From: Oxyruncus cristatus
Taxonomy: Eukaryota > Chordata > Aves > Passeriformes > Cotingidae
Direction of reading: 5' to 3'
DNA: 64,000 bases
NCBI GenBank assembly: GCA_013399855.1
Contig: VXAY01001093.1
Location: forward strand, 248,463-312,462
Under the pieces are notes generated by a model that worked only from the letters and a program-made list of their open reading frames with translations, was not told where the DNA came from and did not search any database. Positions 15,301-18,300 of this stretch are shown here, one piece after another (position 1 is the first letter of the stretch; every line of letters starts with the position of its first letter). The position numbers and the translations under genes are program-made.

Positions 15301-18300
15301 TTCTCCAGAATTATAGTCATGACTGAAAAACAAATAATGATTTTTTTTTTCTTACTTTGTCAACGAAACCAATGTCTTGTACCATTCCCAGCTCCTCTGT
15401 TGTGGGTTTTGCTACGGATACAATGAATACGTTGACTCCAAATTCTCTGGCCACTATGCCGGCTTCTTCTAGATCATCTGAGGGCCAGCCATCTAGAAAC
15501 ACTACAATGATCTTGGGAATTCCTTTCCGTGCTCCATTTTCCAAAGAGAAGAATTTCTGAGCTGTGTGCTTCAGAGCTTTTCCTTGTTTTGAAGGGAAAA
15601 ACAATACGAAGAAATAACACATACAGTGATGGTATGTTTTGGTACCAGTTTCCTGTCTGAAATTGTGCTGGATTTATGCTATGATTAAAGGTCTAACCCG
15701 GTGTAGTATTGAAATAGTGTCCCAGGAAATTTGATAATGATGAAGCTTCAGCAATCTCTAAGCTAAAAACCAACTGCTCTAAACCAACACCCCCAGCAAA
15801 AAACCAAACCAAATACCACCAAAAAACCAACTAACACCCAACCAAAAAAACACCACAACAAAAACCAATAAAAACCCCACAGATAAAGCTAAGGAAGAAT
15901 TCAGACTTTTTTTCTTTTTCCCCCGTGGGAAAACAGATATACTGGTGCCTGCCAAATGGGTTGGAAGGAAGACATTTCACAAGCTAAATTTAGGTAGCTC
16001 CTGAACTACAATGTACTTGGAGCTCAGTTTTCTTATTTGGCTGGTTTTGGCTGGGGTAATTAATTTTCTTCAGAGTAGCTAGTTGGGGACCGTGTTTTGG
16101 ATTTCTGTGGAAAACAGTGTTGGTAATACAGGGATGTTTTTGTTATTGCTGGCCAGCTCTTGCACAGTACCAGAGCGTTTTCTGCTTCTTGTACCACCCT
16201 GCTAGAGAAAAGGTGCACAAGGGAGACACATTTGGGACAACTGACCCCAACTGACCACAGGGCTATTCCATATCATATGATGTCATGCTCAGCATATAAA
16301 GCTGGAGGAATAAGAATAAAGGTGGGGGGACGTTCAGAGTGGTGACAAGAACTGTTGTGTGTGCTGAAGCCCTGCTTTTCTAGGGATGGCTGAACACCTA
16401 CCTGCCCTGGGGACATGGTGAATTGATTCCCTGTTTTGCTTTCCCTATTAAATTGTCTTTATCTCAATCCGTGAATTTTCTCACTTTATCTTTCCAGTTC
16501 TCTCCCCCCCCACCAGTGGCTGTGTGGTGCTTGGTTGCTGGCTGCTCTTCACAACCACTTACTCTATGTTTATTCTAACTCTTTAATTAGCCACCCAACA
16601 AGAAAGAAACACTAAGCCTTTTATGAATTTGTCTCAAGATGTCACTCAGTTACTATTAATGTTTAAACACAGGAAGCGATATTTACACTTCTACTCTAAT
16701 AAAATGTGTAATAAGCAGCCCTAACTTCTGGAAACGAAATGTAAAATGTGGCCACATTCTTGTGGAAAAACACTGAACCTGATTAAGATAAGTGTGGCAT
16801 CTAAAACACTTTCTTACCTATCTGAATTATATGAACTTCAATATACACACACAAATGTATATATATATAAAAAATACGTAAAGCAATAATTTCTATTTCA
16901 GTGGAAGTATGAACTCACCTGTATTGGAATATTTCAGTGGAAGTATGAACTCACCTGTATTGGAATTGCCTCCTCTGAACCCTAGTTCCTTTATAGCAAA
17001 TAAAACTTCTTTTGCAGCAGTGAAGTTTTTCAGATAGAATTCAATTTTTGGATGTTCACTGTGGAAAAATAAAAAATAGAGTAATAAGGTTTGCAGTTCA
17101 CTTTTCATATTGGTATGGCGTTAGCAAGCTAAACCACACTTGGAATCATTTTACTCTTGGTAATATATATTCTTCTCCGTATTTTAGAACAGAAGTATGC
17201 TCCTTGCTTAGTAAGTCTCACAATCATTAGCAAGAGGAATTATCTACCTGAATGGGTAAATTAAGAACTGTCTGGTTCTTATGCTTATCAAACAGCTGAA
17301 AACACTTGGTTGAAAATATATAGAAAAAAAAATTATGAACCTGCTAGATGTTAAACTAAACGCATTTGTGTAATTAAAAATTGGCAGGCTTTCTACTATT
17401 TGTATGAGAAATAACTTCTTTATAAAAGAAGTTTCCTGCTGTTCTACTAAGATGAGCTACAAAGCTGTCAGCAGCCAAGGGGCTGTGAGAAGTCCAGCTG
17501 CTCTCTCTATCCAAATATCACAGAGACAGAAAATATTCAAATTTGTCATGTCCCCTCACATGGACATCTCAGCGTAGCACAGAGCAAACAGTGCTACAGC
17601 TCAAAAGAGTTTGCTTTCTCTTGTTATTCATCAACCATTATGGAGTGGTATTGTTCTGCAAAACAGGAAGTGACATATTAAGTTATTTCTCTTACCAATG
17701 ACTTGGTTATATTTTGTGCAGATCTGTCCTTACCTGGCCTGTACGACTCCAACATGAGGCCCTTCTATTCCAATTCCCAACATTACAGCTACTTTTCCAA
17801 GGAAGTTTTTCTGCAAATTAAACCTACGTTGGCCAATGTTGTAACTTCCATCAATGAGAAATGCAATATCAGCTTTACAGTCTGTGAACATTCAAAATAA
17901 TTGGACTTATTAACACCAAATAAATATTAGGATTTTTCTTTGCAAAGGTAAATCCATGTATTCTTACCTTTGTTTCCAGCTTTTTTATTAAGAGTCTTCT
18001 TAGGTCTTTTACCTTCAGTGAAGAAAAGAGCATGAATCATTTAAGAACAAGAAGATGAATGGACTGAAGTAAACCAGAAAAAGCTCAGACTCCAAAAATT
18101 ACAACACAATCTATCTGCAGTAGGAAATGTCAATCAGTTTAATTATTAAAATTGCATTGCTACTGCTTTGCTCCTTGGAGAATATTCTTTTTCAAATGAA
18201 ACAATTTAATGTTCCTTTCTACACCTGCCTGACTGATTACTGAATCATACAAAGATGGATGGATTTCTGTATCTCACCTTCCTAAGTGCTACTATTTCTC

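Follow-up and report, generated by a model that had tools for sequence, protein, structure and literature searches.

A Tandem Duplication at the Exon 8 Splice Donor of an Avian COCH Gene That May Extend Cochlin by 12 Residues beside the vWA1 Metal Site

Results

The window, a stretch of 64,000 nucleotides of Oxyruncus cristatus contig VXAY01001093.1, carries the cochlin gene COCH on its minus strand, and in this gene the end of coding exon 8 is tandemly duplicated together with its splice donor. Tandem Repeats Finder, run on the 64-kb window, places a perfect 36-bp duplication at 16894-16966 (minus strand; period 36, 100% matches). Direct comparison of the two 36-nt copies, 16894-16929 and 16930-16965, gives an identity of 100%; one shared base completes the span. 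A first-pass annotation of the window had reported this perfect duplication over the end of exon 8 and its GTGAGT donor, with the correct end but a start at 16895, one base off within a boundary ambiguity of one base. Read on the minus strand, ...GGCA is followed by two copies of the unit ATTCCAATACAG/GTGAGTTCATACTTCCACTGAAAT, in which the slash marks the exon–intron boundary, and then by AGAAATT.... The unit consists of the final 12 bases of coding exon 8 and the initial 24 bases of the intron, and each copy contains the donor CAG/GTGAGT. The upstream donor, ancestral and intron-distal, lies at 16949..16957 (minus; GT 16954-16953), and the downstream donor, new and intron-proximal, at 16913..16921 (minus; GT 16918-16917). 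As annotated at the outset, the donors at 16954 and 16918 are identical and 36 nt apart. Both face a single acceptor, the arrangement of two consensus donors for one acceptor that characterizes an alternative 5′ splice-site event. The 36 nt between them (16919..16954, minus) are open and in phase, and use of the downstream donor would extend the exon by 12 residues, EFILPLKYSNTG. Translation of the assembled exons, in which the long form reads through, confirms the in-frame 12-residue extension proposed earlier.

The duplication is not a random match, although short tandem duplications are not rare in the window. None of 30 first-order Markov sequences of window length contained a perfect tandem duplication with a unit of 15-60. 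The window itself contains three with units of 15-100: 5686-5721 (unit 18), the COCH exon 8 duplication, and 32553-32623, a GC-rich array. By a rough count, ten donors with 28 placements each present a target of ∼0.4% of the window. Given three short duplications per window, donor hits are therefore expected now and then genome-wide, and the duplicated COCH donor is an instance of an already known kind of event. The edges of the duplication have one base in common, which argues against slippage between longer pre-existing repeats; it probably arose by fill-in repair of staggered breaks. The copies are identical at 36/36 bases, as noted when the duplication was initially called recent, but this identity is weak evidence of recency. 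At about 2 neutral changes per billion sites per year, a pair of 36-base copies could remain identical for many millions of years.

Nine minus-strand coding exons with intact AG/GT borders join into one frame of 523 residues plus a stop codon, signal-peptide exons excluded, and the frame is clean with either donor. They are the first LCCL exon (26526..26682), the second LCCL exon (20117..20250), the linker exon from LCCL to vWA1 (18872..18937), a small linker exon, GKRPKKTLNKKAGNK (17968..18012), the exon vWA1a with its DGSYN motif (17734..17881), the duplicated exon (16955..17058; 104 nt in the ancestral structure, ending ...GGNSNTG in phase 1), the exon vWA1c, which starts GKALKHTAQKFF (15356..15582), the vWA2 exon (12982..13498), and the last coding exon with the stop codon (12135..12310). 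Two short 5′ coding exons, with the ATG at 32501 and the second exon from 32399, were read from the sequence and from comparison with a Pitangus sulphuratus protein (P0066). They precede six exons of which the duplicated one is the sixth, making it coding exon 8, as the first-pass annotation had it. The linker exon starts at a TAGCAG tandem acceptor of the NAGNAG type (18935-18940, minus), so that the protein could read either PATKD or PTKD, a difference of one residue. A 147-base N gap (32158-32304) and, just before the start codon, a single N (32506) lie in the GC-rich 5′ part of the gene.

The assembled protein has the domain order LCCL (Pfam, 88.2 bits) followed by two vWA domains (Pfam VWA, two stretches, 285.2 bits). 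The original assignment to COCH holds, because the first LCCL exon matches PDB entry 1jbi, cochlin (E 1.5e-20), and its alignments with named bird cochlins cover 100% of the protein. These matches also led us to drop vitrin (VIT), a relative of cochlin, as the gene name; a 35-residue exon query matched collagen VI chains only and is uninformative for gene identity. Homologues were surveyed in a protein database clustered at 90% identity with one representative per cluster, and 120 of 742 proteins with E ≤ 0.001 were listed. All listed homologues with names are cochlins, and the remainder are unnamed or hypothetical proteins with the same domains. The top score among the matches listed belongs to the cochlin of Lepidothrix coronata (95% at 100% query coverage). 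P0066 matches at 96% over 78% of the query, with 49/49 residues identical in exon vWA1a; it is closer than the Lepidothrix protein where it is well modeled, with several residues still differing from the window. The nearest proteins among the matches listed thus come from two families of Passeriformes, the Tyrannidae (Pitangus) and the Pipridae (Lepidothrix), which supports the passerine setting assumed in the first-pass annotation. Residues 1-158 of P0066 are not cochlin: they read exon 1 through its intron, take the first LCCL exon in the wrong frame, and include intron sequence that matches window positions 25019-25197. The reading through exon 1 into the intron matches the window at 96%.

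The exon 8/9 junction is plain in 109 of the 120 listed homologues; six carry other inserts, and the remaining five (P0029, P0092, P0105, P0110, and P0115) have an incomplete or altered sequence at this point. A junction pattern matched 111 of the 120 (105 plain, 6 with inserts), and four of the nine outside the pattern (P0040, P0042, P0097, and P0104) are plain with one substitution. EFILPLK, or a shorter piece of it, occurs in none of the 120. An insert-aimed search with long-form residues 205-245 returned nothing at E ≤ 0.001 among 64 candidates; plain cochlins failed in it too, and it tests only for insert-bearing proteins among the cluster representatives. With a plain junction in 109 homologues and the insert in none of the 120, the single copy is the ancestral state and the insert is derived. 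The initial description of the duplication as species-specific agrees with the absence of the insert from the 120, within a survey of 90%-identity cluster representatives that could hide close relatives with the insert. A duplication would likewise be invisible in annotated proteins if the annotation assigns its second copy to the intron.

Six listed vertebrate cochlins, those of Saimiri (P0051), Pan troglodytes (isoform 11, P0111), Prolemur (P0072), Pipistrellus (P0078), Otolemur (P0070), and Pelodiscus (P0024), resemble the long form in having extra residues between GGNSN and KALK. Their inserts differ from the one in the window in sequence and range from 2 to 44 residues. These homologues indicate that the junction may tolerate extra residues. 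P0051 and P0111 have similar 44-residue inserts (DITL.KYLFVMLKRS...), which suggests a cassette exon common to a New World monkey and an ape.

The position of the insert was examined with a structure model of the homologue P0001, built from 38 cochlins picked for spread from the 120 listed. The mean predicted local distance difference test score (pLDDT) of the model is 68.5, and only its local vWA1 elements were used; blocks 231-240 and 241-250 score 80 and 85. These elements are a strand (210-213), a helix (221-229), a loop, and a second helix (240-251). In this model, the insert would separate Gly241 from Lys242 at the N terminus of helix 240-251, beside a variant metal site. The canonical metal-ion-dependent adhesion site (MIDAS) consists of D-x-S-x-S, T, and D. 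In the vWA1 alignment, D167, S169, N171, and D271 are invariant (38/38), residue 238 is Ser in 32 sequences and Thr in 6, and residue 240 is Thr in 31/38. In vWA2, D369, S371, S373, T440, and D471 are all invariant (38/38). By this pattern, vWA2 is canonical, whereas vWA1, with D-x-S-x-N as its first motif, lacks the full five-residue set and is a variant MIDAS. The first-pass annotation had placed the extension beside the metal-binding loop, to which it assigned the Asn-Thr-Gly turn after GGNS. The position stands, with a caution: within GGNSNTG, conservation of a ligand-type residue points to Ser238 (Ser/Thr in 38/38) and not to the Thr of NTG (31/38), and the first motif of vWA1 has D-x-S-x-N in place of D-x-S-x-S. 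Fold comparison of the P0001 model retrieved other vWA proteins (PTMP1, collagen VI, and integrin I domains) and was uninformative about the insert. In mouse cochlin, vWA1 has been suggested to be required for glycosaminoglycan binding (PMC9987951; cited, like the articles below, from a portion of its text).

Elsewhere in the window, Tandem Repeats Finder detects a 67-bp unit in 2.1 copies (51347-51490; 93% matches) that begins with a T run. Two open stretches, at 43203-43718 (+) and 2288-2740 (+), resemble, and may be, fragments of a CR1-type reverse transcriptase.

Discussion

The duplication, its two donors, the open frame between them, and the plain ancestral protein are direct observations. 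The account of the locus that we favor, with a probability of roughly one-half, is that a lineage-specific donor duplication has left both donors in use, so that a long form of cochlin is made beside normal cochlin. The 36-bp event would have copied the end of exon 8 with the start of the intron, creating two identical full-consensus donors, of which the upstream one keeps the ancestral exon adjacent and the downstream one the ancestral intron. U1 small nuclear ribonucleoprotein (snRNP) should be able to bind both donors, and both would be spliced, with a substantial share of transcripts from the intron-proximal downstream donor. The products would be normal cochlin and a form with the 12 extra residues at the end of the vWA1 metal-site loop. 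We infer the origin, the donor use, and the effect on the protein; for the long form, the most likely effect is a nearly neutral one or a mild change in ligand binding.

The two donors do not differ in calculated U1 duplex energy (−12.7 kcal/mol each). Exon 1 of human estrogen receptor alpha (ER-alpha) has two donors 33 nt apart with MAXENT scores of 8.6 each. Their spacing would allow U1 snRNP on both, and the intron-proximal one is normally used; the reason for an intron-proximal preference between two comparable donors is not known (PMC6002489). U-rich intron sequence starts ∼44 nt past the downstream COCH donor, and 36 nt farther from the upstream donor. This tract is at best slight support for downstream use, because the TIA clusters with predictive value were located 10-28 nt past a donor (PMC2964331).

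Several observations weigh against this account. Opening the upstream donor is estimated to cost 2.7-2.9 kcal/mol versus 4.7-6.2 for the downstream donor, so that the fold estimate leans slightly to the upstream donor and the ancestral product. SRSF1 favors the intron-proximal site and hnRNP A1 the intron-distal one, and in DOK7 intron 4 minigenes with the same donor at both places, SRSF1 suppression of the upstream site was weakened (PMC5585400); the DOK7 donors are 11 nt apart versus 36 nt in COCH. At the protein level, G235, G236, N239, and G241, which flank the junction, are invariant in 38/38 sequences over vertebrates, and the insert is partly hydrophobic; the long form may therefore misfold. 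Its best VWA_2 stretch lies in vWA2 instead of vWA1, with a drop in score from 81.4 to 70.9 bits, and it lacks the weak, below-cutoff VWA_3 match of the plain form. The other inserts at the exon 8/9 junction are mostly database predictions, and the second copy may be an assembly error or heterozygous. In favor of the account, the long form retains both of its Pfam VWA stretches (274.6 bits versus 285.2 in the plain form). The long form reads GGNSNTG-EFILPLKY-SNTGKALK, and since the duplication repeats SNTG, either copy could occupy the native position while the added residues lengthen the loop. The published cases of donor choice point both ways, and a mixture of both products is what we would expect, an expectation that we hold loosely.

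A real but silent duplication is possible but rather unlikely; splicing would then almost always take the upstream donor, leaving the second copy in the intron and cochlin as it was. The upstream donor keeps its ancestral exon context and is the more accessible one in the fold estimate, the conserved residues around the junction would let upstream-donor alleles survive more easily, and in DOK7 minigenes the upstream site was used more when both positions carried one donor than when the upstream donor was weaker (PMC5585400). The identity of the COCH donors and of their 36 bases of local context argues the other way, as does ER-alpha exon 1, where equal donors resolve to the intron-proximal one (PMC6002489).

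Assembly error, by which contig ends with a common 36 bases were joined unmerged and the genome has one copy, is improbable. The exact identity of the copies would fit such a join, as would the presence of the N gap and the single N in this window. The site is, however, far from any gap or ambiguous base, the nearest N being at 32158, and one ordinary short read can cross the 72 bp.

Much less probable is that this bird lineage has turned the donor duplication into a tissue-dependent cochlin isoform, in which the SNTG repeat would give the vWA1 metal-site loop two registers and change glycosaminoglycan binding in inner ear or lymphoid tissue. That the long form is selected because of a novel property, for example a change in how vWA1 binds glycosaminoglycans, is likewise very improbable, as it would draw on a single sequence, with both expression and selection hypothetical. 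A longer exon is the expected outcome, because the 36-nt interval is probably too short for a vertebrate intron. Removal of the 36 nt from the first GT to the second AG as a mini-intron, which would restore the ancestral mRNA, is extremely improbable: each copy does contain AG/GT, as in models of intron gain by tandem duplication (PMC4974935 and PMC2891723), but the new interval of 36 nt falls below known vertebrate intron lengths, and the mRNA would be indistinguishable from that of plain upstream-donor use.

Returning to use of both donors, identical donors with 36 bases of the same context in a natural gene offer a clean natural test of the choice between equal splice sites, and the two COCH products would differ by 36 nt, easily counted in RNA. 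A long form, if made, would also test how a vWA fold accepts an insert beside the metal site, in a deafness gene. The closest likeness that we can draw is to exon 1 of the human ER-alpha gene (ESR1), where, as in COCH, equal-score donors at nearly the same spacing (33 nt) contest one acceptor (PMC6002489). The available text of that article does not present the ESR1 donors as a tandem duplication, whereas the COCH donors share 36 identical bases of context and would give products that are 12 in-frame residues apart in length. The Drosophila system of PMC2891723 is also similar, in that a tandem duplication copies a splice site or an AG/GT motif and opens new splicing outcomes. Unlike that system, as far as the available portion of the article describes it, the COCH duplication copies a donor, at an exon-to-intron boundary, and its expected result is a longer exon.
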